A DNA stretch of 64,000 bases, taken from positions 124,001 through 188,000 of the forward strand of contig JAKFXL010000016.1 in assembly GCA_021731365.1 (NCBI GenBank), written 5' to 3'. Origin of the DNA: Gammaproteobacteria bacterium. Its GTDB lineage: Bacteria; Pseudomonadota; Gammaproteobacteria; Tenderiales; Tenderiaceae. Below are positions 8,814-63,030 of this stretch, piece after piece. Each line of letters begins with the position of its first letter. The stretch's first letter is position 1. The notes beneath the pieces were generated by a model. It ran no database searches. It had not been told where the DNA came from and worked only from the letters and a program-made list of their open reading frames with translations. A program made the position numbers and the translations under genes.

Positions 8814-8823
8814 TAAATTTGGG

Positions 8824-8854
8824 AAAATACCGCGTTTATACGCGGTATTTTTGT
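8824..8854 (+). terminator. Rho-independent terminator after tRNA-Val
   Basis: AAAATACCGCG and CGCGGTATTTT form an 11-bp stem with loop TTTATA, followed by T-rich sequence. It ends about 40 bases before thrS, so thrS needs read-through or its own promoter. Confidence 0.85.
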
Positions 8855-8893
8855 TTTGGGACCGCAGTCATATTTGCAATGGGATATATATAG

Positions 8894-10819: not shown

Positions 10820-10822
10820 AGT

Positions 10823-11347
10823 ATCGCTGCTGAAAAAAAGGTCCGGATTAATGATGAGATAACCTCTCGCGAGGTACGTGTCATTGATGCTGAGGGCAAT
10901 ATGATGGGGGTCATGACGATTGAACAGGCGCTGCAATTTTCCAGCGAATCTGAGCATGACTTGGTTGAAGTTTCCCCCACGGCGGTGCCGCCAGTTTGCC
11001 GTGTTATGGATTATGGAAAATATGTGTTCGAAGAGAACAAAAAGCGCCAGATAGCCAAGAAAAAGCAGAAACAGATTCAGGTGAAAGAGGTGAAGTTTCG
11101 CCCTGGCACCGAGGAGGGAGACTATCAGATCAAGTTACGTAATCTGGTGCGTTTCCTGACTGAAGGAGACAAGGCCAAGATCACACTCCGTTTTCGCGGA
11201 CGTGAGATGGCCCATCAAGAACTTGGTATGAAGTTGCTTAAACGTGTTGAGGTTGATCTCATTGAGATTGGCCAGGTTGAGCAGTTTCCCAAGATGGAAG
11301 GCCGGCAGATGGTTATGGTGTTATCACCAAAGAAAAAGGTCATATAG
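10823..11347 (+). CDS. infC: Translation initiation factor IF-3 with ATC start
   Basis: IF-3 (174 residues) binds the 30S subunit and rejects wrong start codons. The first ATG in frame (10901) would remove about 26 conserved residues. The frame is open back to the thrS stop, and the only reasonable start is ATC at 10823, eight bases after the Shine-Dalgarno GGAGG (10810-10814). Rare AUU/AUC/AUA starts are the known autoregulatory device of infC, because IF-3 blocks initiation at its own codon. The N-terminal part includes KVRINDEI and the linker is Lys-rich ([12 protein letters not shown]). It sits in an operon with thrS, rpmI and rplT. Confidence 0.93.
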
Positions 11348-11394
11348 ACCTACCTACTGCTGCTGATTAACAAAGTAGTTCGGAGAAATAGAAG

Positions 11395-11592
11395 ATGCCG
11401 AAGATGAAAACTCATAGAGGCGCTGCCAAACGCTTTAAGGCGACGGGTTCTGGCCATTTTAAACGTGGTTCAGGATTTCGTAGACATATTTTGACCAAAA
11501 AGAGCACCAAGCGTAAGCGTCAGTTGCGCAACCCTGCCATGGTCTCTGCCGCTGACAAACCATCAGTACGCAGATTGTTGCCTTATTGCTAA
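11395..11592 (+). CDS. rpmI: 50S ribosomal protein L35
   Basis: This 65-residue basic protein starts [20 protein letters not shown] and ends VRRLLPYC, the L35 pattern. It lies between infC and rplT, the universal order. In E. coli L20 represses translation of this transcript; the 47-base gap after infC could hold such a site, but I see no clear copy of it. Confidence 0.96.
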
Positions 11593-25726: not shown

Positions 25727-26389
25727 ATGAAAAAACTACTGTTGGTGCTGTCCTTGGTTGCATGGGTAAACCCCGCTTACTCTACAGTCATCAAGTCCAA
25801 TATTACTGGTGCTGATATGGCGGGCATCAATGTAACGGCATATTTTGCAGGCGGCGGATCTGAAACTGCTACTTGGGTTACTACCAGCACAGATGGAACC
25901 CCAGCTTATCAAGAAGGGTATGCGGGTGGCGCGTTTGGTGCCGGGTGGTCGTTGACCCAGCAGGGTGAAACATTTGGGCAATTTGGACCTGGAAGTCAGT
26001 TGTTAGGGGTTTGGACACTGAATAATACGTCAGGCAATTCTCTTATGAAAATCGCTATCGATGCTCTGATGGCAGATATTGTCTTTGATAATATGTTTGG
26101 CGCTGAAGAGACCCCAGGTTCTGGTCCAGGACGTGAATTTACACCTGGTCTGACAAATGCACCGGGTTCATTTGCGTATAGTAATGTGTATAGCGCACCG
26201 GACCTGTATGGTTCGTTGACCCTTGATTGGGGTGTGACAGGGCTTGCTTCAGGCAACACCTTCCAGTTTATGGCTGATACCGATGCGATTCCAGAACCCG
26301 CTACAATATTGTTATTTGCTGCAGGCCTCCTTGGCCTAGCCGGTACACGCACTAAAAGACAGCTGCCAACTATTAAAAGTGAGGTTTAA
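25727..26389 (+). CDS. PEP-CTERM sorting domain protein
   Basis: This 220-residue exported protein has a signal peptide (KKLLLVLSLVAWVNPAYS). The C-terminus has the full PEP-CTERM signal: PEPATILLFAAGLLGLAG followed by the basic tail TRTKR, recognised by an exosortase in the inner membrane. The body is Gly/Thr-rich, beta-like, without Cys, and of unknown function. No exosortase gene is in the window, so the enzyme must be encoded elsewhere. The lasso-type precursor starts only 4 to 10 bases after its stop, so the two share a transcript. Confidence 0.9.
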   Translation: MKKLLLVLSLVAWVNPAYSTVIKSNITGADMAGINVTAYFAGGGSETATWVTTSTDGTPAYQEGYAGGAFGAGWSLTQQGETFGQFGPGSQLLGVWTLNNTSGNSLMKIAIDALMADIVFDNMFGAEETPGSGPGREFTPGLTNAPGSFAYSNVYSAPDLYGSLTLDWGVTGLASGNTFQFMADTDAIPEPATILLFAAGLLGLAGTRTKRQLPTIKSEV

Positions 26390-26393: not shown

Positions 26394-26570
26394 ATGATAA
26401 TGGCGACTAATGATGTGGTTTATAACGGTGATGAATTGGTATCAAAAAAATCTTACCGTAAACCAGAATTCAAAAAAGTAGGTAGTCTGGCAGAGTTGAC
26501 CCAAGGATTTGCAGGCAGCGTGCCTGATGAACAAGGCGGTCAGACAAAGCGTAACCCGTTCTTGGGTTAA
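26394..26570 (+). CDS. Lasso-peptide-type RiPP precursor
   Basis: This 58-residue precursor is read from ATG 26394 behind GAGG; ATG 26400 and GTG 26379 are alternatives. The leader ends YRKPEFKKVGSLAELTQ, which fits the lasso leader rule Y-x2-P-x-L-x3-G-x5-T-x with Tyr -17, Pro -14, Phe (for Leu) -12, Gly -8 and Thr -2. The predicted 21-residue core starts at base 26505: Gly1-Phe-Ala-Gly-Ser-Val-Pro-Asp8-Glu9, then QGGQTKRNPFLG. Gly1 could be joined to Asp8 or Glu9, giving an 8- or 9-residue ring, with bulky Arg16, Asn17 and Phe19 as possible plugs. The gene follows the PEP-CTERM gene and precedes an HPr-kinase-like gene. Maturation proteins are found at 51-63 kb. Confidence 0.82.
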   Translation: MIMATNDVVYNGDELVSKKSYRKPEFKKVGSLAELTQGFAGSVPDEQGGQTKRNPFLG

Positions 26571-26577: not shown

Positions 26578-26632
26578 CAGCTGGGTGTTGTGATAAAGAC
26601 ATATGAATGTCTAAGATTGTGTCACCCAGCTG
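26578..26632 (+). promoter_or_regulatory. Inverted repeat enclosing the kinase start codon
   Basis: CAGCTGGGTG (26578-26587) and CACCCAGCTG (26623-26632) are perfect 10-bp inverted arms around a 35-base loop that contains the kinase ATG (26607). A smaller hairpin, TAACCC/GGGTTA (26552-26569), lies just before, over the precursor stop. Together they could make the kinase less abundant than the precursor or protect the precursor mRNA. Confidence 0.5.
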
Positions 26633-27578
26633 GATTTTCACGACCCCCCTTCATGGTGTGCGGCTCTATCAGTCAGCTGATACCGATCGGTTAGATTGTG
26701 ATGGCGAATATATAGTATCTATAAAGCTCAGTTTCTCTGAGTGTTTTGTCCCGACACAGCAGAAATCGATTTGGCGTCTCTCAACGCAAGGTGAGCGATA
26801 TAGCAGTGTTGTTGAGCTGTTTGATGATCCAACAGGAAAATTATTGCACATTGAGTGTCAAGGCACAGGGTCGTTTCAATACCAGGGCAATGAGATCAAT
26901 GTTGCATGGCGAGATGAGGGTACCAGCTTTGAGCATTACCTTCAGACAGTCGGACTGAGTTTGTGGCTGGAAATGCGCGGGATACTGTGTATTCATGCCA
27001 ATGCAATTGAAACCGAGCGTGGAGTCATTGGGATAATAGCCCCAAGTCAAACAGGCAAAACAACATTAACTGCAGCACTTGCAGTGCGTGGCATGGGCAT
27101 GATGAGCGATGACATGATGGCCATACATAAAACTACGGAGGGGCTAAAGGTCTTTCCCGGTTGGCCTCAAGTGAGAATGTGGCCAGAGGTAGCCCAGCAT
27201 TTTGTGAAAGATATTGAAACTTTACAACGTGTTCATCATCGCTTTGAAAAGCGAATAGTGGAATCCGGCACCCAAAGCGAACTTCGTTTCTCAAGTAAAA
27301 GTGGCCGGTTAAAGAGGCTTTATCTGTTGGATAGGACGGATAGCAACGATTCGGAGATAAGGATAGAACAGCTTTCAGCATCAGAGTCGATGATAGTGTT
27401 GTTACAGAATAGTATGTTGGCAGATGCATACAGGTCACTGAATGTTGAAAAAGATAGATTAGACAGGCTTGCATCAATGCTTGAGTCTGTAGAGATAAAA
27501 CGGATTACTTACCCCAGTGGCAAAGAGCATCTGGTTAATATTTGTAAAAGCATTGAAGCAGATGTGAAAACAATTTAG
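26607..27578 (+). CDS. HPr-kinase-like protein next to the lasso precursor
   Basis: This 323-residue protein has a Walker A loop (APSQTGKTT, about residues 144-152) and an Asp-Asp pair (SDDMMAIH, about 166-170), as in HPr kinase/phosphorylase C-terminal domains. The N-terminal 120 residues are beta-rich and not HprK-like. HprK-like kinases occur in lasso clusters, where a paeninodin-type kinase phosphorylates the C-terminal Ser of the precursor, and also beside EPS/PEP-CTERM loci. Here the core ends in Gly, so that exact reaction is impossible; Ser5, Thr14 or another substrate must be considered. No PTS HPr protein is encoded nearby. The kinase fold call is strong, the substrate is unknown. 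Confidence 0.75.
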   Translation: MSKIVSPSWIFTTPLHGVRLYQSADTDRLDCDGEYIVSIKLSFSECFVPTQQKSIWRLSTQGERYSSVVELFDDPTGKLLHIECQGTGSFQYQGNEINVAWRDEGTSFEHYLQTVGLSLWLEMRGILCIHANAIETERGVIGIIAPSQTGKTTLTAALAVRGMGMMSDDMMAIHKTTEGLKVFPGWPQVRMWPEVAQHFVKDIETLQRVHHRFEKRIVESGTQSELRFSSKSGRLKRLYLLDRTDSNDSEIRIEQLSASESMIVLLQNSMLADAYRSLNVEKDRLDRLASMLESVEIKRITYPSGKEHLVNICKSIEADVKTI

Positions 27579-34179: not shown

Positions 34180-34306
34180 AGGCATTTTGAGAGTCTTCAA
34201 TTTTCTCATAACGCATGAAAGAGCATTGTTAGGCTTACCGATCAACTTTGGATAGGTAATAGTTTTCTAATTATCATCAGATAATGATTATTTAAGGTGT
34301 ATTTTG

Positions 34307-39023: not shown

Positions 39024-39797
39024 ATGAATGATAAAATGGATTTTGTAAAAATACTTAACATTGATTTAAATAATGAACGGCGAGATGATTTCCTTGCGGC
39101 ATTTTGTGAGGGATTTCTTGTGCCTGTAAATGTTGATATGCTTATGAAAATGCAAAATGATAAAATATTTTGGAATGTATGCCAATCAGCAGAGTATAGG
39201 GTTTGTGATAGCCAAATACTTATGTACTCTTCACGATTTTTAAACACTTCGATAGTTGAGAAAATTTCGGGTTCTGATTTTTTTCCAGAGTTTTGTCAGT
39301 ATCATAGAAGCAATCCTCAAATAAAAATATTTTTACTGGGGGCTAAAGATGGTGTTGCGGAAACCGTGAGGCGTAGACTTAACGAAAAGATTGGGCGCGA
39401 GATTATAGTGCATGCGCATTCGCCTTCCTTTGGTTTTGAGAAAGATGAAATTGAGTGTGAGAAAATCGTTGAATTGATTAATAACTCTTCTGCGACTGTG
39501 TTGGCGGTAGGGGTTGGAGCACCGAAACAAGAGCTTTGGATAAGTAAATATCGACGAGAATTAACAAATGTAAAAATGTTCATGGCAATTGGTGCGACAA
39601 TTGATTTTGAGGCGGGAAATGTTAAACGCGCACCTGAGTGGATGAGTCGTAGTGGCTTGGAATGGTTATATCGGCTTATGTCGGAGCCACGTCGATTGTG
39701 GAAGAGATACTTGATTGATGATATGCCTTTTATAATACTATTGTTAAAACAAAAATTTGGTCTATATGCAAATCCACACAAGGACTTGAGAAAATGA
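39024..39797 (+). CDS. WecG/TagA/CpsF family glycosyltransferase
   Basis: This 257-residue GT26-type enzyme contains [16 protein letters not shown], the family hallmark [34 protein letters not shown] and [17 protein letters not shown]. It transfers an N-acetylmannosamine-type sugar or related unit onto a lipid-linked acceptor. It overlaps the next gene by four bases (ATGA). Confidence 0.9.
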
Positions 39798-40819
39798 TTT
39801 TTCGTAGCAGAGCACCTTTGCGTTTAGGTTTGGCAGGTGGTGGAACGGATGTGAGTCCATACAGTGAAAAATTTGGTGGATATGTACTTAACACCACAAT
39901 AGATATGTTTGCACACTGTACTCTTGAGGTTACGAATGACAATATTATTGAGTTTCGGGCAAATGACTTAGGTCAGTCTGCTACATATGCGAGTTCAGAT
40001 AAACTAGAATATGATGGAAATCTGGATGTATTTAAAGGTGTTTATAATCGTATTGTAAAAGACTTTACCCACAAGGCACTTTCTTTCAGGCTTACTACAT
40101 ATTCAGATGCAATCAGTGGGAGTGGTTTAGGTGGGAGTTCAACATTAGTTGTTGCAATTTTAAAGTCATTTGTAGAATGGTTGAATCTTCCTCTTGGTGA
40201 TTATGATCTTGCTCATTTAGCATATGAAATAGAACGAATTGATGTTGGGCTGGCAGGGGGGAAACAAGATCAGTACGCAGCCACATTTGGTGGATTTAAT
40301 TTTATTGAGTTTAGTGAAAATGATAAGGTTATAGTTAATCCATTACGTGTCAAGAACTGGATTGCTTGCGAGTTAGAAGAGTCAATGCTGATTTGTTATA
40401 CAGGCCGATCTCGCGATAGTGCAACTATTATTAATGAACAAACACAAAATGTAAAAGATAATAAAACCGTCTCACTTGAGTTCATGCATCAATTAAAGCG
40501 AGATGCTATTGACATGAAGGAAGCTATACTTATAGGTGATATCCCATTTTTTGCGGATGTTCTGGATAGAAGTTGGCGTAATAAGAAGCAGATAGCATCA
40601 TCAATTACAAATGCGGAAATTGACCAGTATTATGATGCTGCTAAAAATTCCGGTGCCTTAGCTGGAAAAGTTAGTGGTGCGGGTGGTGGTGGTTTTATGG
40701 TCTTTGTTGTTGACCCTAAAAATAAGCATTTAGTTAAGCATGCGCTTGAATCATTGGGTGGAGTGGTTAGAAATATTCGGTTTACGACGGATGGCACACA
40801 GGGCTGGAGAATATCTTGA
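39794..40819 (+). CDS. hddA: D-glycero-alpha-D-manno-heptose 7-phosphate kinase (GHMP)
   Basis: This 341-residue GHMP kinase contains [18 protein letters not shown], the ATP-binding loop [18 protein letters not shown] and [15 protein letters not shown]. In the GDP-heptose pathway it phosphorylates the heptose 7-phosphate at C1 to give the alpha-1,7-bisphosphate. Identity as HddA is supported by the directly linked gmhA, hddC and gmhB genes. It overlaps both neighbours by four bases. Confidence 0.92.
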
Positions 40820-41406
40820 TGCAGCAGTATATTTACGATCAAATTGAAAGTTCGTATAAAGTTAAAGAGAGACTTCTTGAATCTAATGAATTAAGAGAAT
40901 TGATAGGTGCAGTAGCAGAAAAATGTGTGGCTGTTTATAAGGCAGGTGGAAAAACACTTATTGCAGGTAATGGTGGTAGTGCGTCAGATGCACAACACAT
41001 GGCCGGCGAGTTTGTTAGTAGATTTTACTTTGATCGTCCAGGGCTTCCTTCATTGGCACTGACTACAGATTCTTCTGTTTTAACCGCTATCGGCAATGAT
41101 TATGGTTACGATAAAATATTCTCTCGGCAGATACAGGCAAATGGTAGGTCAGGTGATATCTTTATTGGAATTTCAACTTCCGGAAACTCAATTAACGTGA
41201 TAAATGGTATCCATCAGGCAAAAGCAATGGGCATTATTACCGTAGGGTTGACGGGTGAGGGGGGGGGCGGAATGGATGGTATTTGTGATTATTGTATTAA
41301 GGTGCCGTCACGAGAAACACCCCGAATCCAAGAGTCACATATTTTAGTTGGTCATATCATCTGTGCTGTTGTTGAAGAAGCCATGTTTGGTAAAGGTTTT
41401 GATTGA
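40816..41406 (+). CDS. gmhA: Phosphoheptose isomerase
   Basis: This 196-residue SIS-domain enzyme converts sedoheptulose 7-phosphate to D-glycero-D-manno-heptose 7-phosphate. Motifs are [36 protein letters not shown] and [12 protein letters not shown]. It is the first step of the heptose set although third in the gene order. Confidence 0.93.
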
Positions 41407-41407
41407 A

Positions 41408-42100
41408 ATGGAGGCAATAATACTTGCAGGAGGGTTTGGCACGAGACTTAGAGACGTTGTTACAGATGTACCGAAACCAATGGCGAAAGTTGCGGGTGAG
41501 CCTTTTCTGAAACATTTGTTTGTTTATTTAAAGCGACAGGGGATCAGGCGGGTAATATTATCGGTTGGCTATATGAACGAGGTCATAAGAGAATATTTTA
41601 AATTCAATTATGACGATATTGAAATAGTTTATTCGATTGAAGATGAGCCTCTTGGTACAGGTGGGGGGATTCGTAAAGCCTTGGCTCAAGTAGTTTCCCA
41701 GAATGTTTTTATTGTTAATGGAGATACATTTTTTAATGTGTCTCTAAAAGAGTTGTTGGACTTTCATATCAAATCAAGTGCCGATATCACTCTCTCACTT
41801 AAAGAAATCTCTAATGTTTCTCGCTACGGAACAGTCAAGTGTGGAGAAAGTGGGAAAGTTGAATTATTTGAAGAAAAAAAACTTACAGGGAAAGGTTTAA
41901 TTAACGGTGGTGTTTATGTGATGGATAAAAATATTTTTGATTTGTACACGCTGCCAGAAAGATTCTCCTTTGAAGAGTTTATGTCTCAGAACGTATCTAG
42001 TGCTCACATAAGCTCAATTATATGTGATGAATATTTTATTGATATTGGCATACCAGATGAATATCATCGTGCACAAAATGAATTGTTAGAATACTTGTAA
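41408..42100 (+). CDS. hddC: Heptose 1-phosphate guanylyltransferase
   Basis: This protein of about 230 residues is a sugar-nucleotidyltransferase: EAIILAGGFGTRLRDVVTDV (nucleotide loop), PKPMAKVAGEPFL, IVNGDTFFNV. It would form GDP-D-glycero-alpha-D-manno-heptose from the 1-phosphate. The frame is open upstream to 41348, but ATG 41408, one base after the gmhA stop, gives the family N-terminus. It overlaps gmhB by one base (TAATG). Confidence 0.9.
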   Translation: MEAIILAGGFGTRLRDVVTDVPKPMAKVAGEPFLKHLFVYLKRQGIRRVILSVGYMNEVIREYFKFNYDDIEIVYSIEDEPLGTGGGIRKALAQVVSQNVFIVNGDTFFNVSLKELLDFHIKSSADITLSLKEISNVSRYGTVKCGESGKVELFEEKKLTGKGLINGGVYVMDKNIFDLYTLPERFSFEEFMSQNVSSAHISSIICDEYFIDIGIPDEYHRAQNELLEYL

Positions 42101-51314: not shown

Positions 51315-53000
51315 ATGAAGTTTAAATATTTCTTAACCTATCTTACCCCTCATCGATCGGTCCTGTTATTGGCGGCGCTGTTTATGCTGGGCGAGAGTGC
51401 GGTGGCACTGTTGATCCCGTGGATTGCGGGCCAGTTTGCCATGGGCGTTGTGGGTGATAGCAGTGCATGGGGGCTGGAGAGTGGCCAGATTCTATTGCTG
51501 CTGTTGCTGGTATTTTTGTGTCAGGCGCTGTTCCGATTTTTGAATAGCTATTTGATCACCCGGAGTGGCGCGGAGATCCTGGCGCAGCTGAGTTTGCGTC
51601 TATACGAACATCTGCAGTCGTTACCCATGGGCTACTTTCATGCAACCAAGCGTGGCCAGGTGTTGGCGCTGTTGAGTAATGATGTGGCGATGTTGAGCCA
51701 CTTTGTGACAGGCACCTTGATTGGTCTTGTGCCCATGGTGATGACGCTGGTGGGGGCGATTGTCTTGATTGCACTGATTGATTGGCAGATTGCGTTGCTG
51801 ATCCTGCTGCTGACCCCGCTCTTTTATATCACCCTGAAGTTGATGAGCAGAAAGATTCGTCCGGTCTCGTCGGCCTTGATGCAGCGGCAGGCGGACCATC
51901 TGTCCGTATTTGAGCAGAGTCTGAGCCTGTTATCGCTGATCAAGGCGTTTGTGCGCGAGCCACTGGAGCGGCAGCGGTTTGCATCATCCACCCAGGCGGT
52001 GCTGAAACTGCGATTGCAGCAGCTGCAAATGCAGTCGGTTCTGGCCCCGGTTGTGCAGCTGTTGGCGTCACTGGGGATTTTGGCGGTGCTCTGGCTGAGC
52101 AGTCAGCATCTCACATCAGGCACACTCACCGCCGCTGAGCTGGTGGCCATTCTATTATATGGACTACTGTTTGCCCGGCCGATGAGTGGTTTGGCAAATC
52201 TGTACGGTGATATCCAGCAGGCCAGGGGTGGTGCGGAGCGGCTGCTGGATATCTTTTCCGTTGCCCCGGAACCGATGCAGAGTGGAGCGCTTGAATTTGG
52301 GCTTGGGCTTGGGATCGGCCCCGTCCGTGGTGAGATCGAGTTTCACGACATCCATTTCCACTATCCCGGTGCTGAGCCACTCTTTAGCGGGCTCAATTTT
52401 CAGATTCGCGCCGGTGAAACCGTGGCGCTGACCGGCGTGAACGGTGCCGGAAAGAGCACTTTGATACAGATGTTAATGCGCTTTTTTGATCCACAGAGCG
52501 GGGTGATCCGGCTCGACGGCACCGACATCCGTACCGTGACGCTGGCAAGTTTGCGGCGACAGTTTGGTCTGGTGGCCCAGCATGTGCTGCTATCGGATGT
52601 GAGCATTGCGGACAATATCGCCTACGGCAAACCGGGTGCCAGCCAGGCAGAGATTGAGGCGGCGGCCCGCACCGCTAATGCCCACGGTTTTATTGCCGCG
52701 CTGCCGTTGGGGTACCAGACGATGGTGGGGGAGCAGGGCGTGCGGCTATCGGGCGGGCAGCGGCAGCGGCTGGCATTGGCCCGGGCACTGCTGATCCAAC
52801 CGGCTATTTTAATCTTTGATGAGGCAACCTCGATGTTCGATCCGGAGGGTGAGGCGCTGTTTCTGCAAGAGTGCCACGAGCAGTTGCGGAGCCGTACCGT
52901 TATAATCATCACCCATCGTCCCGCCACCCTGGCGCTGGCAGATCGGGTGATGCAGCTTAAAGATGGGCAGTTAATAGAGGTGAAAAATGACAAATTATAA
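51315..53000 (+). CDS. ABC exporter (permease-ATPase), probable lasso peptide exporter
   Basis: This 561-residue half-transporter has six membrane helices in residues 1-310 and an ATPase domain with GVNGAGKSTL (about 374-383), LSGGQRQRLALARAL (about 478), ILIFDEATSMFD and the His-switch ITHRP. There is no peptidase C39 domain, which fits a lasso exporter (McjD role) because the leader is removed by the B2 protein. The gene overlaps the PqqD-like gene by 14 bases. The match to type is strong; the cargo is inferred from the adjacent B1 and B2 genes. Confidence 0.82.
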   Translation: MKFKYFLTYLTPHRSVLLLAALFMLGESAVALLIPWIAGQFAMGVVGDSSAWGLESGQILLLLLLVFLCQALFRFLNSYLITRSGAEILAQLSLRLYEHLQSLPMGYFHATKRGQVLALLSNDVAMLSHFVTGTLIGLVPMVMTLVGAIVLIALIDWQIALLILLLTPLFYITLKLMSRKIRPVSSALMQRQADHLSVFEQSLSLLSLIKAFVREPLERQRFASSTQAVLKLRLQQLQMQSVLAPVVQLLASLGILAVLWLSSQHLTSGTLTAAELVAILLYGLLFARPMSGLANLYGDIQQARGGAERLLDIFSVAPEPMQSGALEFGLGLGIGPVRGEIEFHDIHFHYPGAEPLFSGLNFQIRAGETVALTGVNGAGKSTLIQMLMRFFDPQSGVIRLDGTDIRTVTLASLRRQFGLVAQHVLLSDVSIADNIAYGKPGASQAEIEAAARTANAHGFIAALPLGYQTMVGEQGVRLSGGQRQRLALARALLIQPAILIFDEATSMFDPEGEALFLQECHEQLRSRTVIIITHRPATLALADRVMQLKDGQLIEVKNDKL

Positions 53001-53256
53001 GATTCAGGACGATGTCTTCCTGCAAAAAGTGGTGAATGAGACGGTGATTCTGGCCCCGGAAACCGGCAACTACTTCTCCCTTGATGAGGTGGGTAGCCGC
53101 ATGATTGAGCTGTTCAGGCAGACCGGTTCGGTAGAACAGACCGTTGCCGCCCTGGTGCAGGAGTACGATGCGCCGCAGGTGGATATCGAACGTGACCTGC
53201 TGGCGCTGCTGGAGGATATGGCCCAACAGGGTGTTGTTGAGAAAATTGAATCTTAA
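52987..53256 (+). CDS. PqqD-like RiPP recognition protein (lasso B1)
   Basis: This 89-residue winged-helix RRE protein contains VFLQKVVNETVILAPETG, YFSLDEVGSRMIELFRQTGS and QVDIERDLLALLEDMAQQGV. Stand-alone PqqD-like proteins bind the leader peptide (Tyr and Pro of the YxxP motif) and deliver it to the B2 protease and the cyclase. It overlaps the exporter gene by 14 bases and the protease gene by about 26. Confidence 0.88.
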   Translation: MTNYKIQDDVFLQKVVNETVILAPETGNYFSLDEVGSRMIELFRQTGSVEQTVAALVQEYDAPQVDIERDLLALLEDMAQQGVVEKIES

Positions 53257-53701
53257 ACTTGGCCGCCTGTTTAGCCTGCCGGCCAAAAGCTACCCACTGC
53301 TGCTAGAGGCGTGGCTGACCCTGGCCTGGGTCGATCTGGCTATCCGTTTTCTTCCCTATGCCCGCTGGCGTCACTGGCTGGAGGGCAGCGCGTCGATCCA
53401 GAGCGCTGATCAGCCAACAGCGGATATTGATGGATTAATCCACACCTCAGAACAGGTTGCCAGACACCACTACGCCGCCATGAACTGTCTGCGGCGCACC
53501 GTGGCACAGAAGATGATGCTGGCGCGGCGCGGCATATCAGGCCAAGTCCACATCGGGGTGAAAAAAGAGCAGGCCGGTTTTGCCGCCCACGCCTGGTTGA
53601 GCTATCAGGGAGAGGTATTAAACGATTCGGCAGATGTAACTGAGCGCTACGTGGAGCTGGAGCGGGCGCTCTGGCGTAGCGTGAAGTTTTTTACGGATTA
53701 G
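53231..53701 (+). CDS. Lasso peptide leader protease (B2, transglutaminase-like)
   Basis: This protein of about 156 residues has the lasso B2 pattern: YPLLLEAWLTLAWVDLAIRF, then the transglutaminase-like catalytic part with Cys in YAAMNCLRRTVAQKMMLARR, His in GFAAHAWLSYQGEVLND and a following acidic residue as the third member. It cuts the leader after the Thr-x pair. The frame is open upstream to 53144, but GTG 53231 (or nearby TTGs) gives the right size. Precursor and cyclase genes are not adjacent but lie at 26.4 kb and 61.2 kb. Confidence 0.85.
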   Translation: MLLRKLNLKLGRLFSLPAKSYPLLLEAWLTLAWVDLAIRFLPYARWRHWLEGSASIQSADQPTADIDGLIHTSEQVARHHYAAMNCLRRTVAQKMMLARRGISGQVHIGVKKEQAGFAAHAWLSYQGEVLNDSADVTERYVELERALWRSVKFFTD

Positions 53702-53770: not shown

Positions 53771-54967
53771 TCAATCCTCCTGAGGGTGGGCTATTAACTG
53801 AGCCGTCTCAGGGTTATAGAACACCTCGGTAATCGACCCATCCCGAATGCGCCGAACGGCTTCGTCAATCACCTGGAGCGGCACCAGGAACCACTCTCTC
53901 GGCTTCACCGGATGTCCGAAGCGATCCTCAATGGTCAGGTCGAGCTGTGCTGCACCGAACAGACGATGGAAGATGTTCTCCAGCCTAATGCGGTTCAGAT
54001 TGTGGAGTGTGTAGGTGGCGACCACCTCCACATCGGCCAACAGGTAGGTGGCATCCTTTTCCGCATTTGCGATGCGGGTCTCCACCCTGCCTCCGGTCAC
54101 GCCGATCTTGTGGATCAGTTCACGATGCTCGGAGACGAATGGATGGCTGGAGAGGCTGCGCAACACATAGATGGTTCCGGATCCAATATCGTCAGGCTCA
54201 GGCGCATCACCAAACAGCGGCCCCATGTCCGGATCGGTCAAGCGGCGGCCGGTCTCGTCCTTGTAGAGCGCCCGTTGTAGCGAGCGGCGCAGCAAGTTGC
54301 TTTCCGTGCCGTTTGCGTAGATGACGCGCAGACGTGCATCTCTTTCACCATTCGGTGCCTTGATGGTTTCACCCACTTCGGCAACATAGGCAAGTTGCCC
54401 GCCGACGATAAAGAAATTTCCGACCTCGATGCTGGCATCACGACCGAAGCGCCGCGTTATGCGCACACCAGCCTTTAGCTCCCGTTCCACCTGTCCAAAC
54501 AGCGGTTGGAACTTGTCAAAATCCGCACACGGCGTGCGGTCGGCGATCTCCTCTGCTGCACGCTTTTCAACGCTGGAGCGCACGTGGCGCAGCACGGTGA
54601 TGTCATTCTGGTCCGCAGGTTCATCTCCTATGCCCAACTCGGCCAGCAAAGCATCTTCGTCCAGGTCATCCACATTTGCCGGGGCCGCTGCGCTACCCGC
54701 CAACAGGCCAGGGCCATCCAGTTCAGCCAGCAGGCTTTGCGCTTCTGGCAACTTGCGTAGCTGGTCCAGTCGCACCGCGTACAGGCGCTCAAAGATGTCA
54801 TGGCCTTCGCCATGCAGTGGGGCGCGGCCATGGGTCTGATGGAAGCGCAGGATATCCTCGAAGCCCGCGATGATGCGTTCCTCGCGCGGTGTCCGGCTAG
54901 TGACCTTGAGTGGGGCGACTTCTACCCCCAGAGCATCTAGCAGTTCGTCATCGTCCATATCAGCCAT
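53771..54967 (-). CDS. GIY-YIG nuclease family protein (T5orf172-like)
   Basis: This 398-residue protein has an acidic, helical N-terminal half (DLDEDALLAELGIGDEP) and a C-terminal GIY-YIG domain from about residue 263: GTIYVLRS, HKIGVTGGRVETRIANAEKD, the metal-binding Glu in LNRIRLENIFHRLFG and KPREWFLVP. This fits the T5orf172/MUG113 subfamily. It is the last gene of a four-gene operon with helicase, RhuM and methyltransferase and would be the DNA-cutting subunit. It overlaps the helicase gene by 8 bases. Confidence 0.82.
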   Translation of the reverse strand: MADMDDDELLDALGVEVAPLKVTSRTPREERIIAGFEDILRFHQTHGRAPLHGEGHDIFERLYAVRLDQLRKLPEAQSLLAELDGPGLLAGSAAAPANVDDLDEDALLAELGIGDEPADQNDITVLRHVRSSVEKRAAEEIADRTPCADFDKFQPLFGQVERELKAGVRITRRFGRDASIEVGNFFIVGGQLAYVAEVGETIKAPNGERDARLRVIYANGTESNLLRRSLQRALYKDETGRRLTDPDMGPLFGDAPEPDDIGSGTIYVLRSLSSHPFVSEHRELIHKIGVTGGRVETRIANAEKDATYLLADVEVVATYTLHNLNRIRLENIFHRLFGAAQLDLTIEDRFGHPVKPREWFLVPLQVIDEAVRRIRDGSITEVFYNPETAQLIAHPQED

Positions 54968-57092
54968 TTCCCGCGCCTCCGCTCGTCTCTTTTATCTTCG
55001 CCTGGGCGCGGTAGCGTGCCAGCGCTGCCACACCTTCAGCCATGCGTTTTTCCCACGCATCGGCGGAGTTAATATCTGGCCGACGGCCACGCTCGTTCTT
55101 GAACAGCAAGGCGCGTTTTGCCAGATCGCGGGCTTCGTCCTCGGGGATGCTCACCTTCTTGGCGGCAATGCTGGCCTGTACTTGGCGCAGTGACTTCTCA
55201 TCCATCGCCTTCGCCAGCACCGCATAGGCGGCATCGAAGGGATTGATGCGGTCGATCAGATCAATATCCAGGTCGCGCACATTCACAAACTTGCGCACGC
55301 CATCTATCAAAGCCGTATTGCCTTGCACTGTGCTATCGCCCGTACCCCCAACATTCGCATCGGCCTGAGCCAACGCCAACTTGGCCTGCTGGGTGATGTT
55401 CATGGCGGCAATCGCGTGTTGGCGGATCGCCTCCTGGTCGACATCGCTCAACTCCGGGTAACGCTCGCGCACGATCTTGCCCATGCGCGACTGGGTCAGC
55501 TCTTCGGGCAGGGTATTTTCCTTGTCGAACAGACCTCGCTCCAGCGCGACCTTGTCCTGCAAGAAACTGGTGACGACTTCGTTCAAGTCCTCTTTGCAGA
55601 TGCGCGTAGCCTCCGGGCTTTGCGGTGTTGTCAGCCCGTTGATCTCGACGTGAATCTGGCCGGTATCCTTGTTCACCCCAATGTTATGGCCACTCTCCCT
55701 GTAGCCCGCCTCACCATAATCGAAGCCATCCTTCGGACCACTGTTTTTAGGTGTGAACTCATAGCGCGGCGCCAGCACCTGCTCCATCAACAGGCTGGCG
55801 GAGATTGCCTTGAGCATGTCGTTCACCGCCTCGGCCACGGCGGCCTGGTCGGCAGCGGGTTCGGCGATCAGATTGGTGAAGCGTGAGCGCTCCTTGCCCT
55901 CGGCGTCGCGGGTGGCGCGACCAATGATCTGCACGATTTCGGTCAGACTACTGCGGTAGCCAATGGTCAGCGCATGTTCGCACCAGATCCAATCGAAGCC
56001 CTCCTTCGCCATGCCCAGCGCGATGATGACATCAACGTGGTCGCGGTTATTTTTCTGCGCTGGATCTTTCAGCGCCGCCAGCACACGGGAACGCATGGTC
56101 AGGTCGCTGTCATCCACCAGGTCCGCCACCTTCAGTATGCGGCCATCCTGGGTCTGTATCTGGTGGAAACTGGTGGCAGGATCGACCCCTTTCCACTGAC
56201 CCAGGCCGTGCATGATTTCGTTTACCTCGCGCTCCTTGTCTTTCAGACTTTCGCGGGCATTCACATTGGGAATGTGGACGATGGTTTTCAGTGCCGGGTC
56301 CAACACCTTGGTGAGGGCCTTCACGTAAGGGCCGGTGTAAAAGAAGTAACCGATATCCAGCGACTTGAGCCACTGATAACCATTAAGCTGCTCGTAGTAG
56401 GTGTAGGTGATCGTCTCAAACCGGGCCTCATCCGCTGGCCCCAGCACCGCCTCGCTGTCGCCACGGAAGTAGGAGCCGGTCATGGCCACCAGATGTACTT
56501 TGTCGCGGGTGATGAACGCGCCCAACTGATTGCCCAGCACGTTACCTGGATTGCTGGAGACGTGATGGAACTCGTCAATCGCGATCAGGCGGTTATCAAA
56601 TGCCGCAATGCCCAGCTCCTCCACCGCAAAGCGGAAGGTGGCATGGGTGCAGACCAACGTCTGGTCGCTGCTGGCCAAAAATTGGCGCACCGCGTCCACC
56701 TTGGACTTGGCCACGCGTGGCTCATCCACGCCGGGGGCGTTGCACAGGTTCCACTGCGGAGCCACCTGCCAATCCCAATAAAAGCCCTGCTGGCTCAGCG
56801 GTTCATCGGCAAAACTGCTGCCAATGGAACGCTCCGGCACCACTATAATGGCCTGCTGCACGCCTTGGTTGTTGAGCTTATCCAGCGCGATAAACATCAG
56901 CGCGCGGGACTTGCCCGATGCTGGCGGCGATTTGATCAGCAGATACTGTTCACCACGCTTGGCATAGGCGCGCTCCTGCATGGCGCGCATCCCCAGTTCG
57001 TTGGCCTTGCTGGATGCACCGGTGCGCGCCGTGGTGATGGATACCGACGGCACGGTGTAGGTATTGGTCGGGCTGACAGACTTATCGCTCAT
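54960..57092 (-). CDS. Superfamily 2 DEAD/DEAH-type helicase
   Basis: This protein of about 710 residues contains YLLIKSPPASGKSRALM (Walker A, about 52-66), IAIDEFHHVSS (motif II, DEFH), LVAMTGSYFRGD (motif III) and IIGRATRDAEG (motif VI). The C-terminal third has no known domain. It resembles helicase subunits of restriction systems. The longer frame starting at 57200 reads through the RhuM 3' end; ATG 57092, in the 11-base overlap with RhuM, is the natural start. No nuclease motif is seen in it, so cutting may depend on the GIY-YIG protein. Confidence 0.85.
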   Translation of the reverse strand: MSDKSVSPTNTYTVPSVSITTARTGASSKANELGMRAMQERAYAKRGEQYLLIKSPPASGKSRALMFIALDKLNNQGVQQAIIVVPERSIGSSFADEPLSQQGFYWDWQVAPQWNLCNAPGVDEPRVAKSKVDAVRQFLASSDQTLVCTHATFRFAVEELGIAAFDNRLIAIDEFHHVSSNPGNVLGNQLGAFITRDKVHLVAMTGSYFRGDSEAVLGPADEARFETITYTYYEQLNGYQWLKSLDIGYFFYTGPYVKALTKVLDPALKTIVHIPNVNARESLKDKEREVNEIMHGLGQWKGVDPATSFHQIQTQDGRILKVADLVDDSDLTMRSRVLAALKDPAQKNNRDHVDVIIALGMAKEGFDWIWCEHALTIGYRSSLTEIVQIIGRATRDAEGKERSRFTNLIAEPAADQAAVAEAVNDMLKAISASLLMEQVLAPRYEFTPKNSGPKDGFDYGEAGYRESGHNIGVNKDTGQIHVEINGLTTPQSPEATRICKEDLNEVVTSFLQDKVALERGLFDKENTLPEELTQSRMGKIVRERYPELSDVDQEAIRQHAIAAMNITQQAKLALAQADANVGGTGDSTVQGNTALIDGVRKFVNVRDLDIDLIDRINPFDAAYAVLAKAMDEKSLRQVQASIAAKKVSIPEDEARDLAKRALLFKNERGRRPDINSADAWEKRMAEGVAALARYRAQAKIKETSGGAGNG

Positions 57093-57144
57093 GCTTTTTT
57101 CCCTTCGTCGGTTTCTTCGTGGGCTTGGCCGCTGCCGTGATCTT
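57082..57144 (-). repeat. Gene-end repeat, copy at RhuM/helicase junction
   Basis: The last about 20 codons of RhuM (ITAAAKPTKKPTKGKK) match the last codons of the methyltransferase gene at 58131-58198. The most conserved part is a 23-base block, 21 of 23 identical. Each copy ends over the start codon of the next gene. Confidence 0.65.
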
Positions 57145-58134
57145 GGCACGACGCTCAACACGCTTTTCCAGCTGCTCGATCTCCTGCAAATCTGCCGCAT
57201 CTGCTTCCAGCGCCTCAGTGGTGCGGCGATGGTGATCGAAGGTCTCGTAGCGTGTGTGGGCGATGCTCACCATTTCATCATGGCGGATCGAGCCGGAATT
57301 CTGCAAAACCGCCTGCCCGTTGAACGCCAACATCCCGTCCACATGGCTGCGCCAAAAATCCAGTGTCAGGTCGTGCCGCTGTTTCACCCTTAGCTCGGCC
57401 TGTTCCAGAAAAATAACAACCAGCCGATTGAGGGTGTCGATCTCATCTTCCGAGAGGTAATTCTTGGCGACGACAACATCCTGCTTGCGCACGCGCGAGC
57501 CGCGAAAGTGGGTGAGCGACATATTCGGGCTGTCCGGGTCTGCGCGCTTCACGATCAGATCGGCGGCGGTGTGGCCGGCGGCAGCAAAAAGCAGCTTGTT
57601 CTGTACCTCGGCGAAAAAAATCTGGGTCTCTTTTTCCGTGATGCGGTAATCCGAGCTCAGGGCGAAAAGGTCGCGGACCTTTTGATAAAAGCGCTTCTCC
57701 GAGGCCCGTATCTCGCGGATGCGCGCCAGCAGTTCGTCGAAATAATCCCAAGCCCCCGGGTTCTTGAGTCGCTCATCGTCCATGACAAAACCCTTCACCA
57801 GAAACTCCTTCAGGTGTCGGGTCGCCCACTGGCGAAACTGGGTGCCGCGTGGCGAGCGGATGCGGTAGCCGATGGCCAGAATCAGCTCCAGATGGTAGAG
57901 CTGTGTGCGGTAGTTCTTGCCATCGGCGGCAGTTGTCAAGGAATCCTTGACAACTGAACCCGGGTTCAACTCCCCCTCGGAAAAGATATTTTTTGCGTGG
58001 AGCGAGACGTTTTGCTTAGTGGTCTGGAACAGCTCGGCGATTTCAAGCTGGCTCAGCCAGATGCTGTCGGCCTCCACCCGCAGATTGATGCGGGTTTGGC
58101 CATCGTCGGAGGTGTAAATAATCAGGCTGCTCAT
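57082..58134 (-). CDS. RhuM family protein
   Basis: This 350-residue protein contains VEADSIWLSQLEIAELFQTT and NVSLHAKNIFSEGEL, then DGKNYRTQLYHLELILAIGYR, SPRGTQFRQWATRHLKEFLV and GFVMDDERLK. This is the RhuM signature; family members are found in pathogenicity islands and in many defence operons, and the biochemical role is not established. The basic C-terminal tail resembles that of the methyltransferase. It overlaps the methyltransferase gene by 4 bases and the helicase gene by 11. Confidence 0.88.
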   Translation of the reverse strand: MSSLIIYTSDDGQTRINLRVEADSIWLSQLEIAELFQTTKQNVSLHAKNIFSEGELNPGSVVKDSLTTAADGKNYRTQLYHLELILAIGYRIRSPRGTQFRQWATRHLKEFLVKGFVMDDERLKNPGAWDYFDELLARIREIRASEKRFYQKVRDLFALSSDYRITEKETQIFFAEVQNKLLFAAAGHTAADLIVKRADPDSPNMSLTHFRGSRVRKQDVVVAKNYLSEDEIDTLNRLVVIFLEQAELRVKQRHDLTLDFWRSHVDGMLAFNGQAVLQNSGSIRHDEMVSIAHTRYETFDHHRRTTEALEADAADLQEIEQLEKRVERRAKITAAAKPTKKPTKGKKHER

Positions 58135-58198
58135 GCGCTCTTCCCCTTTATCGCCTTTTTGGTGGGTTTAGTCTTGGCCGCCGCCGTCATCTTGGTAT
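58131..58198 (-). repeat. Gene-end repeat, copy at methyltransferase/RhuM junction
   Basis: This encodes the methyltransferase tail MTAAAKTKPTKKAIKGK and overlaps the RhuM start. It pairs with the copy at 57082-57144. The shared basic tail may help both proteins bind DNA or each other, or may simply be left from a duplication at the gene junction. Confidence 0.65.
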
Positions 58199-60932
58199 AA
58201 AGCTCAAACAGTTTTTCCAGCCGCTCGGTGTCGTTCTTGAAGCGGCGACCGATGTAGATGCGCTCCAGCACCTCGTCGTTGCGCTCGTGGGCGCGGCGCA
58301 GGTTCTCTGGCATTTTGTCCGGGGCGTAGAGGTCAGCAATGGTGGCGGGAAAATGCGCTTCGCGCGCCAGCAGGATGTTTTTGGCGCAGGCGGTCAGGTC
58401 GGCTTTGTTTTGCTCGGTGAGCAGCGGCACGGGGAAGGTATTCCAGCCGAGGGTGTTGGAATACGAAAAATCTGTGCGCATCCGCACACAGACTGTACCA
58501 ATCCAGACCCAGTGCAGACGCGAGGCGATGAGGGCCATGTTCCAGAGGGGGGCATCGTAGAGGGCGAAGTTTCGGTCGCCGATGATTGTTCCACCTTCGA
58601 TCAAACCCACGGGTAAGTAGGGGCGATTTTCTGAACTTACGCGTGGCACGACGATGGTGGTTTTGCTGGATTGATGCCGTATTTCGGAAAACCGATGCGG
58701 TGAGTCTGCTTCGCTTTGCGTTTGCTTTTTGGTGCTGCTCAAACGCATTTGGCGCACATTCTCAAGACGCTTTTGAATATCAGGAATTTCGACCGCTTGC
58801 TCTACGTCGTCATCATTCAACCACAAGCAAAAACGCTGCTTGCCGTTGATAAATTCTTCAGAATTGGAAAAATTTCGGATAAAGATTTTTGCTTTTGGAA
58901 AGTTTTGAATTAGTTGTTCTTTTTCTTGGTAGTCAAGGAATAAGTATCCCCCATCTACAGGCTTAGATCCAAAGTCCATCCCAGCCTGCCCACTTAAAGG
59001 ACGAGCTACCTTATCCACAACCACATCAGCACCCGCCACCAAATAAGCGTTGATAAAGTCCGTTTGCCTCTCAAGTATTGCACCGTCGTCAGTCACAGAA
59101 AATAATCGGTGTGCCTTTCCTGTTTGACTGGTAATACCAACAATCACAACGGTCACGCCAGCGTTATGACTGGCTAAATTATTCCATTTGAACGAGGTAT
59201 GGGCGAAATGAATAACGTGCCTTATACCAAATACCAGCGGCCAAAGAATCGGCACTTGCTGCCCTTGGCAAATCGAATTGGTGGACACAAAAGCGGCGGA
59301 GGCTTTGGTCTTGGTGCCGTAATCGGCAGCCTTCATGAGCCAGCCCGCCACATAATCCAGTGACTTCCAGTTCTTGGTGCGGTTGGCGAAGATAGCTTGC
59401 AAATCGGCTTTCTGTTCATCCGTCTGCCAAGTGGAACCCAAATACGGCGGATTGCCGCAGATGTATGTCTCCCCACCTTCGTTCTCAAAATCAATCTCCG
59501 CCTGATCTAGCGGCGTGCTAAACAGATCATCTGCCACCAGCTTTACGCCTGTGCCCGTAGGTCGGCAGAGACTCAGCCAATCCAGCCGCAGCGCATTACC
59601 GCAAACAATCCAGTTCTGCGCATCCAGCGGCAGGAACTCTGCCAACGCATCCTTCTGTCCGCGATAGAGCACGTCGCACTGGAACTCGGCAATGATCAGC
59701 GCCAGGCGCGCAATCTCCGCCGGAAAGTCACGTAGTTCGATGCCCCGGTAGTTGGTCAGCGGTATCTCGCTACCCAGATGCGGCTCGCCCCGGCGGCGGT
59801 TGATCTCCGCCTCGATCTCGCGCATCTGTTTGTAGGCGATGACCAGGAAGTTGCCGGAGCCGCAGGCCGGATCAAACACACGGATACGCGCCATGCGTTT
59901 GCGTAGATTCAGCAGTTTGGTTTTGTTGTCGCCCGCCGCGTCGAGTTGCGCACGCAGCTCATCCAGAAACAGCGGGTTTAATACCTTGAGGATGTTGGGC
60001 ACGCTGGTGTAGTGCATGCCCAATGCACCGCGCTCTTCGTCGTCGGCCACGGCCTGAATCATGCTGCCGAAGATGTCGGGGTTGATCTGCTTCCAGTTCA
60101 GGTTGCCGGCATGGATCAGGTAGGTGCGGGCCATGCGGGTGAAGCGCGGCACATCGGTACTGCCGGAGAAGAGGCCGCCGTTTACATAGGGGAAACCATT
60201 GGCCCAGTTGGGCAAGCGGGGCTGAGCTACGGTTCGTTCGTCAGGGTTAGTCTTGATGTTCATGGCGCGGAATATTTCGGACAACACCTCATGGGTGTTG
60301 GATCCATCGCGATCGCTCATTTGTTCGATGGTGTGAGTGAACAGGCCCTCGCCTTTGAATATGTCGGTATCTTCGGCAAAGAAACAGAACACCAGCCGCG
60401 CCATGAAATGATTCATGTCGTGGCGACGCTCTTCTTTGGTCCATTCCGGGTTTTCGCGCAGCAGTTCGACGTAGAGTTTGTTCAGTCGCCCGGTGGCGCG
60501 TACGTCGATGGGGTTGTCCTTGATCTCCTTGATGGTGGAGATACCGGCCAGTGATAAAAAGAAGCCGAAATGGTTGGGGAAATCCGGGTAGGCGCAGGCG
60601 ATGGTTTCGCCGCCAATCAGCTCTTCGGCCTCCAGGGTCTGGCCGTCGGTGGTGAGGATGAATTTGGCCTTGGCTTTGGTGGTGGCGGGGCTGGTGCGCA
60701 ACGCCTTGAGGGTTTCGCTAACACCGCCAGCTTCACACACGGCGAGATGGATGTTGTTGCGCTGGAGCACGCCACCGGGCACATCGGAGGCGTTGTTGTT
60801 ACCGGTACGCAGGCGCTTGAGTGCCGTCTCCTTATTGCCGAACGCGGCCAGAAACGCGAACGGAAACTCCGCCGCGTCGAAGGGCTGAAGGGCTAGGTCT
60901 GATATCGCTTCTTCGATCTCTACTGCATTCAT
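58131..60932 (-). CDS. MmeI-like class I DNA methyltransferase
   Basis: This 933-residue protein contains the SAM-binding motif VFDPACGSGNFLVIAYKQM (about 350-368) and the adenine-methylase motif CGNPPYLGS (about 491-499), followed by a target-recognition region (HFAHTSFKWNNLASHNAGVT) and C-terminal helices. The N-terminal third includes the helical spacer of MmeI-type enzymes (RHDMNHFMARLVFCFFAEDTD). I could not find a clear PD-(D/E)xK nuclease motif near the N-terminus, so it may be a methylase only, with helicase and GIY-YIG proteins restricting. It is the first gene of the operon. Confidence 0.85.
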   Translation of the reverse strand: MNAVEIEEAISDLALQPFDAAEFPFAFLAAFGNKETALKRLRTGNNNASDVPGGVLQRNNIHLAVCEAGGVSETLKALRTSPATTKAKAKFILTTDGQTLEAEELIGGETIACAYPDFPNHFGFFLSLAGISTIKEIKDNPIDVRATGRLNKLYVELLRENPEWTKEERRHDMNHFMARLVFCFFAEDTDIFKGEGLFTHTIEQMSDRDGSNTHEVLSEIFRAMNIKTNPDERTVAQPRLPNWANGFPYVNGGLFSGSTDVPRFTRMARTYLIHAGNLNWKQINPDIFGSMIQAVADDEERGALGMHYTSVPNILKVLNPLFLDELRAQLDAAGDNKTKLLNLRKRMARIRVFDPACGSGNFLVIAYKQMREIEAEINRRRGEPHLGSEIPLTNYRGIELRDFPAEIARLALIIAEFQCDVLYRGQKDALAEFLPLDAQNWIVCGNALRLDWLSLCRPTGTGVKLVADDLFSTPLDQAEIDFENEGGETYICGNPPYLGSTWQTDEQKADLQAIFANRTKNWKSLDYVAGWLMKAADYGTKTKASAAFVSTNSICQGQQVPILWPLVFGIRHVIHFAHTSFKWNNLASHNAGVTVVIVGITSQTGKAHRLFSVTDDGAILERQTDFINAYLVAGADVVVDKVARPLSGQAGMDFGSKPVDGGYLFLDYQEKEQLIQNFPKAKIFIRNFSNSEEFINGKQRFCLWLNDDDVEQAVEIPDIQKRLENVRQMRLSSTKKQTQSEADSPHRFSEIRHQSSKTTIVVPRVSSENRPYLPVGLIEGGTIIGDRNFALYDAPLWNMALIASRLHWVWIGTVCVRMRTDFSYSNTLGWNTFPVPLLTEQNKADLTACAKNILLAREAHFPATIADLYAPDKMPENLRRAHERNDEVLERIYIGRRFKNDTERLEKLFELYTKMTAAAKTKPTKKAIKGKSA

Positions 60933-61153: not shown

Positions 61154-63025
61154 CTACTGGCCAAAAACAGCGGCGTATTTTTGAAACCAGATCTGGGCCA
61201 TCAGGGCGTAGAGCAGGTTGACGTTGAGTGAGCTGGCGGGATTTTTAACCACGGATTCAAAGACGCCAAGCAGCTGCTGATTGTTGATCAGCCCCATCTC
61301 CTGGAGCCGGGTATCGGAGAGGATGGCGCGCACGGTGTGGTGCTGGTCGCGAATGATCTGGCCAAAAAAACCATCAAATATAATCTTCTTTTTGTTCCAG
61401 CAGACGCTGTCGGGCAGCCGTCCGGTCATGCTGCGGCGCAGTAGCCACTTGGGGTAGTTGTGGCGCAGCCAGAGGTCATCGGGGATGGCAAAGCTGAATT
61501 CGAGCAGACGCCGGTCAAAAAACGGGTGGCGTACCTCGATGCCAAACCCAGCGGCGGCTTGATGGTAGGAGCGTACCGAATTGATGGTGGATGTATTTGT
61601 CCACGCCTGATAACGGGCCTGTAGGGCGGGGTTGGTGAAGCGCGGGGCGTTTTTATCTGGGGTGTCGTTGCTGTTTTGCATCAACATCTGTCGGGCGGGT
61701 TCTGCCATCCAGGAGGGGAGGGTGGCGCTGGCGGGGCGGCCCAGTGCGGTGCGTAGGCCCCGTTTGATCGGGGTGGGGATCAGCGGTGTTACAAACAGGT
61801 GTAACAGTGTATTTAACAGCGGTAGCTGCATCTCTCTGCAACCGCTGACGGCCTCTTGAATGGCCCGCAGGTCACCACGCCGCAGGCGCTGTGAGTAGGT
61901 GAGGCTGTGGCCCCAGGTCATCTCATCACCACCGCTGCCGGTGAGCAGAACATCGGCACCTATCTCTTTGAGTAGTTTCATCTCGTCCAGATAGCGTGGG
62001 GAGCAGACGGTGCCGGGGTTGTCGAGTGTGGGGGCGTAGAGTTCCCGGAAGTCGAGTGCCAGATGCTGTTCTGCGGCCATGTAGTGGATGTGCGGTAGGT
62101 CGAGGTGCTGCTGCATCTCCTTGATGCGGTCGCTTTCGTCACAACTGGCGGTTTTCTGGTAGGTGTGGGAGATGACGGCGAGCTGTTGCGGGGTTGATTC
62201 CGTAAGCTGTTTGGCCAGGGCGGTGACGGAGGTGGAGTCCATGCCGCCGCTCATCTGTGTGGCGATGGTGGTGGCGGTTGAGCCCATGCGGTCGCTGACG
62301 TTGCGGGTGAGTATGGCTGTGAGCTGCGCTTCATAATCACCAATGGTGGGGTGGCGGATGGTGAAACTGGGGTCCAGTTGCCAGTAACGCTGGATGCGAA
62401 TGCTGTTGGCATCGGCCAGCAGTGAGTGCGCGGCGGGCAGCAGTTCGATACCTTCAAACATCGAACGGTGTGGGTCGGGCCAGCCACTCAGCCAGCAGGC
62501 CAGGGCGTATCGGTTGAGCTGTGCGGTGACGGCACGCTGTTGCAGCAGTTGGCTCCCGTCGGTGGCTATATATATAGCGTCACCCACCTGGGTATAGCTG
62601 AGGGTTCGCATATTCATCACATCCCGTGCGGCAAACAGGGTGCGCTTTTCTCTGTCCCAGAGGGCAAAGGCAAAATCGCCGATCAGGTGCGCCGGGCAGT
62701 GCTGGCCCCACTGGCGGTAGGCGGCGAGGATGAGCTCGGCGTCCGTGGGTTGGGCGGAGAGGGGCGTGGTGTGGAGCTGTTGTAACAGCTCTGGCCGGTT
62801 ATCGATACGGGCATCACAGATCAGCAGGTATTGGCCACAGGCGGAGAGCAGCGGGGCGGCGGCCAGGGGTGAGAGCGGCGCGCTGTGGTTGAGCTGTTGT
62901 GAAAAGGCCAGCGGCCCCTGGATGTGGGTGGTGCTGTTATCTGGCAGTGAGCGGGTGAAGGTATCAACAACATCGGCGCTTAAGGTTGCACCGCGCCAGT
63001 CAATGATCGCCGCAATGCCCGACAT
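61154..63025 (-). CDS. Asparagine-synthase-like lasso macrolactam synthetase
   Basis: This 623-residue protein has an N-terminal glutaminase-like domain and a C-terminal ATP-pyrophosphatase domain with TQMSGGMDSTSVTALAK (about residues 255-272). True asparagine synthases and the exosortase-linked amidotransferases start MCGI with catalytic Cys2; this one reads MSGIAAIIDWRG, so glutamine cannot be used. That is typical of lasso cyclases (McjC role), which adenylate the ring Asp/Glu and join it to Gly1. It lies 5 bases after the ABC ATPase gene and is separated from the B2 gene by the restriction island. No other function fits as well, given the exporter, B1 and B2 genes. Confidence 0.85.
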   Translation of the reverse strand: MSGIAAIIDWRGATLSADVVDTFTRSLPDNSTTHIQGPLAFSQQLNHSAPLSPLAAAPLLSACGQYLLICDARIDNRPELLQQLHTTPLSAQPTDAELILAAYRQWGQHCPAHLIGDFAFALWDREKRTLFAARDVMNMRTLSYTQVGDAIYIATDGSQLLQQRAVTAQLNRYALACWLSGWPDPHRSMFEGIELLPAAHSLLADANSIRIQRYWQLDPSFTIRHPTIGDYEAQLTAILTRNVSDRMGSTATTIATQMSGGMDSTSVTALAKQLTESTPQQLAVISHTYQKTASCDESDRIKEMQQHLDLPHIHYMAAEQHLALDFRELYAPTLDNPGTVCSPRYLDEMKLLKEIGADVLLTGSGGDEMTWGHSLTYSQRLRRGDLRAIQEAVSGCREMQLPLLNTLLHLFVTPLIPTPIKRGLRTALGRPASATLPSWMAEPARQMLMQNSNDTPDKNAPRFTNPALQARYQAWTNTSTINSVRSYHQAAAGFGIEVRHPFFDRRLLEFSFAIPDDLWLRHNYPKWLLRRSMTGRLPDSVCWNKKKIIFDGFFGQIIRDQHHTVRAILSDTRLQEMGLINNQQLLGVFESVVKNPASSLNVNLLYALMAQIWFQKYAAVFGQ

Positions 63026-63030
63026 GGTCG

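Follow-up and report, generated by a model that had tools for sequence, protein, structure and literature searches.

Lasso-peptide precursors carry a leader with a YxxP motif, Gly at position -8, and Thr at position -2, followed by a core that begins with Gly, Ala, Ser, or Cys and has Asp or Glu at positions 7 to 9. The pathway employs a PqqD-type leader-binding protein (B1), a transglutaminase-like leader peptidase (B2), and an asparagine-synthetase-like cyclase, and its genes usually, though not by strict definition, form a single compact cluster. In systems of the paeninodin type, an HprK-like kinase is encoded beside the precursor and the core ends in Ser. The characterized lasso kinases phosphorylate the C-terminal Ser, and in the case of pseudomycoidin a nucleotidyltransferase belongs to the lasso pathway (PMC8498205).

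The DNA analyzed here, a stretch of 64,000 nucleotides referred to as the window, likely encodes a functional lasso-peptide pathway with its genes distributed over several blocks. The precursor consists of the leader MIMATNDVVYNGDELVSKKSYRKPEFKKVGSLAELTQ, which ends in ...AELTQ, and the core GFAGSVPDEQGGQTKRNPFLG. Counted from the predicted cut between the two, the leader has Tyr at -17, Pro at -14, Gly at -8, Thr at -2, and Gln at -1, and the core has Gly1, Asp8, and Glu9; both parts follow the lasso rules. The original prediction had called a lasso precursor with exact leader spacing and these three core residues. The translation confirmed each residue, and the sequence also passed the NCBI curated model lasso_leader_L3 (NF033521; see the Table). 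This model scored above its cut-off nowhere else in the 3.4-Mb genome, and within the class it did so in 7 of 369 genomes. One match, in genome G117, falls within a 1008-aa frame and seems spurious, and at the six other credible leader-positive loci examined, cyclase, B1, or B2 genes adjoined in every case. Because the match is single in its genome and rare in the class, and because lasso genes are found at the other loci, it goes beyond chance; the window precursor is thus unusual only by its distance from the enzymes. Searches of plasmids with the precursor by tblastn and of viral contigs with the precursor alignment gave no match. Collectively, the curated model, selection on the core, and the co-occurring B1, B2, and cyclase genes support the predicted identity of the precursor.

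Evidence for selection came from another genome of the family, the MAG G008 ("Gammaproteobacteria bacterium", record JAJRWO01, isolate Dive96_bin2.238; 77% complete). Its contig C118 carries the same triplet of PEP-CTERM gene, precursor, and kinase, and it was the sole match when genomes were scanned with the kinase alignment. The G008 precursor scored 22.5 bits on NF033521, and Gly1, Asp8, and Glu9 are all kept. The two cores, ending in ...NPFLG and ...NPFQG, are identical at 20 of 21 positions, whereas the PEP-CTERM protein (58%) and the kinase (60%) that flank the precursor are only about 59% identical between the two genomes, and these two proteins together with B2 and the cyclase span 58–61%. 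The 39 codons that could be aligned, starting at YRKP and including the stop, show 16 synonymous and two replacement differences, giving a dN/dS of about 0.015–0.03 over the conserved leader and core, a rough figure from few codons. These results, shown for two genomes, indicate that the core is kept nearly constant by selection, which suggests one fixed target or receptor.

The enzymes expected to act on this precursor are encoded elsewhere in the window. The genes at 52987, 53231, and 61154 turned out to be what the original prediction had taken them for, namely B1, B2, and the cyclase. B1 falls under the cut-off of the lasso-specific models (43 bits on NF033536, cut-off 80), and its best match among solved structures is the lasso protein TbiB1 (9e-10). 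The Cys, His, and Asp of B2 were located by alignment in MNCLRR, AHAWL, and LNDS, respectively. The cyclase is asparagine-synthetase-like although its NF033535 score lies below the cut-off of 525, and this score is twice that on the XrtA amidotransferase model TIGR03108 (155 bits). The protein starts with MSGIAA, Cys2 being replaced by Ser, whereas the asparagine-synthetase-like amidotransferases with readable starts in the bacterial family begin with MCGI. The glutaminase Cys has thus been lost in the cyclase, and on the scores together with the missing Cys2 its identification as the XrtA amidotransferase was rejected. The cyclase gene starts 5 nt past the stop of the ATPase gene of an iron-type ABC transporter (63025-63031 and beyond), the last of three genes. 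Grouping of the cyclase with this transporter was rejected, as other genes occupy this place in G008 and in G314, a genome of another family (91% complete; B2 split over two contigs).

The pathway lies in three blocks over 37 kb (26.4–27.6, 51.3–53.7, and 61.2–63.0 kb), B1 and B2 being 25 kb and the cyclase 35 kb from the precursor, rather than in a compact cluster. Since the enzymes are 25–35 kb away, their pairing with the precursor rests on co-occurrence. Among the 11 genomes of the family, B2 scored above cut-off in two, the same two that yielded the precursor and kinase. The exporter gene runs into B1. In G008, contig C317 holds EPS genes followed by the exporter, B1, and B2 facing the cyclase, which is the order of the window without its restriction-modification-type island; both G008 loci lie on short contigs. 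This island is also absent between B2 and the cyclase in G314, and no direct or inverted repeats of at least 10 bases common to both island junctions were found. The G314 proteins are 65% (B1) and 61% (B2) identical to those of the window (exporter and cyclase in the Table), and their genes adjoin rimP-nusA-infB; the short contigs concerned carry no EPS genes. Neither precursor nor kinase was detected in G314. The processing module is thus a stable unit that can also lie outside an EPS cluster.

Table. Positions of the predicted pathway genes and of neighboring features in the window
Feature	Position	Strand	Remarks
PEP-CTERM surface protein, 220 aa; N-terminal signal-like segment, C-terminal PEP-CTERM tail	25727..26389	+	PF07589, TIGR02595
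Lasso-peptide precursor, 58 aa	26394..26570	+	NF033521 21.8 bits (cut-off 19)
HprK-like lasso kinase, 323 aa; H130, Walker A APSQTGKTT, D168-D169	26607..27578	+	G008 homologue 60% identical; relatives in lasso clusters
Nucleotidyltransferase, PF14907	42683-43918		EPS operon
ABC exporter (MsbA-like), processing module	51315..53000	+	Same order in G008; 73% identical in G314, directly before B1
B1, PqqD/RRE leader-binding protein	52987..53256	+	PF05402 66 bits; closest solved structure TbiB1
B2, leader peptidase (transglutaminase-like)	53231..53701	+	NF033537 71 bits (cut-off 33); PF13471 67 bits
Restriction-modification-type island (T5orf172/MUG113, DEAD helicase, RhuM, MmeI), outside pathway	53771..60932	-	Between B2 and cyclase
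Lasso cyclase, asparagine-synthetase-like	61154..63025	-	NF033535 312 bits; homologues 61% (G008) and 63% (G314) identical, adjoining B2

The gene directly upstream of the precursor encodes a PEP-CTERM protein, as originally predicted; its tail scored above cut-off on both PF07589 (25.7 bits, cut-off 20.7) and TIGR02595 (20.5 bits, cut-off 16), and the gene ends 4 nt before the precursor starts. The precursor has a Shine-Dalgarno-like GAGG that is located within the 3' end of this upstream gene, and G008 retains it. From the tight spacing and the conserved ribosome-binding site within the upstream gene, we infer that the PEP-CTERM gene, precursor, and kinase share one transcript. Around the triplet, scans for promoters and terminators gave sites no more frequently than in shuffled sequence and did not define the transcript. 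The genome search for the triplet, proposed with the original prediction, found it in G008, so that two genomes from a single family keep it as a unit. AlphaFold models from two-row alignments were too poor for use (pLDDT 31 for the kinase and 50 for the PEP-CTERM protein). The genome encodes one exosortase, outside the window on contig C26 and beside an XrtA-type amidotransferase; the EPS cluster of the window was thereby ruled out as the exosortase locus. No exosortase was found in the incomplete G008 genome.

On these data, a functional link of the PEP-CTERM protein to the peptide is plausible, and a role of this protein as receptor or carrier would be a guess. A more specific proposal is that the lasso peptide is made with the exosortase-sorted surface protein and that the two act together in the matrix or on the cell surface, the kinase modifying a residue other than a C-terminal Ser. 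This proposal is rather unlikely. If true, it would provide the first known lasso peptide tied to an exosortase system, as we know of no such peptide so far. No paper linking lasso peptides with PEP-CTERM or exosortase was found in a search that covered few subscription journals, the matches to both terms merely citing a PEP-CTERM paper in their reference lists.

Slightly short of an even chance is given to the view that the lasso pathway is real while its PEP-CTERM and EPS neighbors are incidental, the triplet having been captured together and the surface protein being unrelated to the peptide. The surroundings differ completely: the window triplet lies near tRNA-Gly/Cys and EPS genes, and that of G008 near tRNA-Ser, a transposase-like fragment, and glycerol-metabolism-like genes. 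Furthermore, the G314 machinery is outside EPS genes, a motif search found a PEP-CTERM gene at none of the other leader-positive loci, and such a gene contributes no known lasso step. Against this view, the order of PEP-CTERM gene and precursor, the gap of 1–4 nt, and the GAGG have been kept despite divergence of the proteins to 58–60% identity, a tightness that is rare for chance neighbors.

The same evidence bears on the earlier suggestion that the peptide is made in the EPS/biofilm program. In its favor, both the window and G008 show synteny of the exporter, B1, and B2 with genes for EPS export; against it stand the G314 module and the location of the exosortase outside the EPS cluster. The link of the peptide to the EPS program is thus circumstantial. 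The cluster itself contains genes for GDP-D-glycero-D-manno-heptose (HddA, GmhA, HddC, and GmhB-like; 39794-42648) and two pyruvyltransferase-like genes at 34304 and 36891. Assignment of its PF14907 nucleotidyltransferase to the lasso pathway was not supported, and no close homologue was found in the incomplete G008. In another genome, G088, a kinase, a nucleotidyltransferase, B2, and B1 are encoded beside a Wzc-like gene (8768-11557 of 20 kb read), with no cyclase match in those 20 kb; this may be a case of an EPS cluster that employs the B1/B2 pair for something other than a lasso peptide.

Decay of the pathway was also considered. A precursor that is orphaned or decaying after break-up of its cluster, with no present product, would fit the dispersal of the genes, the island between B2 and the cyclase, and an in-frame TAA in the G008 cyclase (contig C317, around 1013-1032), whose frame is otherwise intact; this codon could be decay or a MAG error. 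However, strong purifying selection on the core and the intact reading frames of all genes in the window make such decay very improbable.

The kinase, encoded directly beside the precursor as in paeninodin-type systems, is lasso-associated by homology. A Pfam search gave no match, and its score on TIGR04352 (HprK_rel_A) was 29 bits with a cut-off of 200. A profile with relatives, including two HPr-rel-A members, matched solved HPr kinases (2e-6), and one built solely from the two triplet kinases did not. All six aligned kinases have the key His, the Gly-Lys of Walker A, and the first Asp of the D-D/E pair in common. With the window kinase alone, tblastn reached relatives in lasso clusters of Thalassobaculum, Halopiger, Sulfitobacter, Priestia, and Azospirillum, the Priestia cluster being annotated as paeninodin family, and a sixth in Tistrella outside any lasso cluster. 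In the plasmid clusters with a kinase, no clear precursor candidates emerged from a regex search. In both the window and G008, the core has Gly rather than Ser at its end, and its only hydroxyl residues are Ser5 and Thr14; since the C-terminus is Gly, one of these internal residues is probably the target. Contig C2 of the same genome encodes a genuine HPr-rel-A kinase (372 bits on TIGR04352), and a nucleotidyltransferase-like gene comes next (5607-7684 of the piece read). A very improbable account, in which an HPr-rel-A-like system of kinase, PqqD protein, and nucleotidyltransferase modifies the precursor without forming a lasso and the asparagine-synthetase-like protein is an EPS amidotransferase, can draw on this separate pair, on the PF14907 gene of the EPS operon, and on the G088 genes, but it is opposed by the low TIGR04352 score of the window kinase, by a cyclase that lacks Cys2 and adjoins B2 in both genomes without the island, and by a leader and a Gly1/Asp8/Glu9 core that match the lasso rule.

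For the split lasso pathway, family knowledge suggests the following course. The precursor would be translated right behind the PEP-CTERM gene, with the HprK-like kinase next. B1 would bind the YxxP...G...T leader, and B2 would cut after Thr-Gln. The cyclase would then activate Asp8 or Glu9 and join it to Gly1, and the adjacent ABC exporter would secrete the threaded peptide. The kinase would probably act on the linear precursor, at Ser5 or Thr14. For the core less one water, the calculated monoisotopic mass is 2143.05 Da, and 2223.01 Da with one phosphate. If this pathway is functional, the gene for a lasso peptide need not lie near those for its enzymes, and mining near cyclases alone would miss some such peptides. 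The unusual constancy of the core and the conservation of its PEP-CTERM partner favor a fixed role at the cell surface over that of a variable antibiotic, and with the kinase comes the question of a new phosphorylation site.

The known systems nearest to that of the window are of three kinds. First, HPr-rel-A systems, which pair a TIGR04352 kinase with a nucleotidyltransferase, share HprK-like motifs with the window kinase, but the latter is far under the family cut-off and stands beside a lasso precursor. Second, in kinase-containing proteobacterial lasso clusters of the Sphingobium yanoikuyae type (PMC8498205; G236 and G145 in this analysis), as in the window, the kinase directly follows the precursor and a leader Gln precedes Gly1. 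The core of G236 ends in Thr and that of G145 in Gly, as does the window core. The enzymes of both surround the precursor, with no PEP-CTERM partner found by motif search, and the gammaproteobacterium G236 has cyclase, precursor, kinase, B1, and B2 in one block, whereas the window genes are split. Third, paeninodin-type clusters such as that on plasmid pB2.3 of Priestia aryabhattai, whose kinase was reached by tblastn from the window kinase (2e-8), contain, like the window, a cyclase, a precursor, an HprK-like kinase, B1, B2, and an ABC exporter. The last residue of the Priestia precursor is Ser, the kinase target (PMC8498205), while the window core ends in Gly; the annotated Priestia region is without a PEP-CTERM gene, unlike the window; and the genes that form one compact block in Priestia are spread in the window over three.
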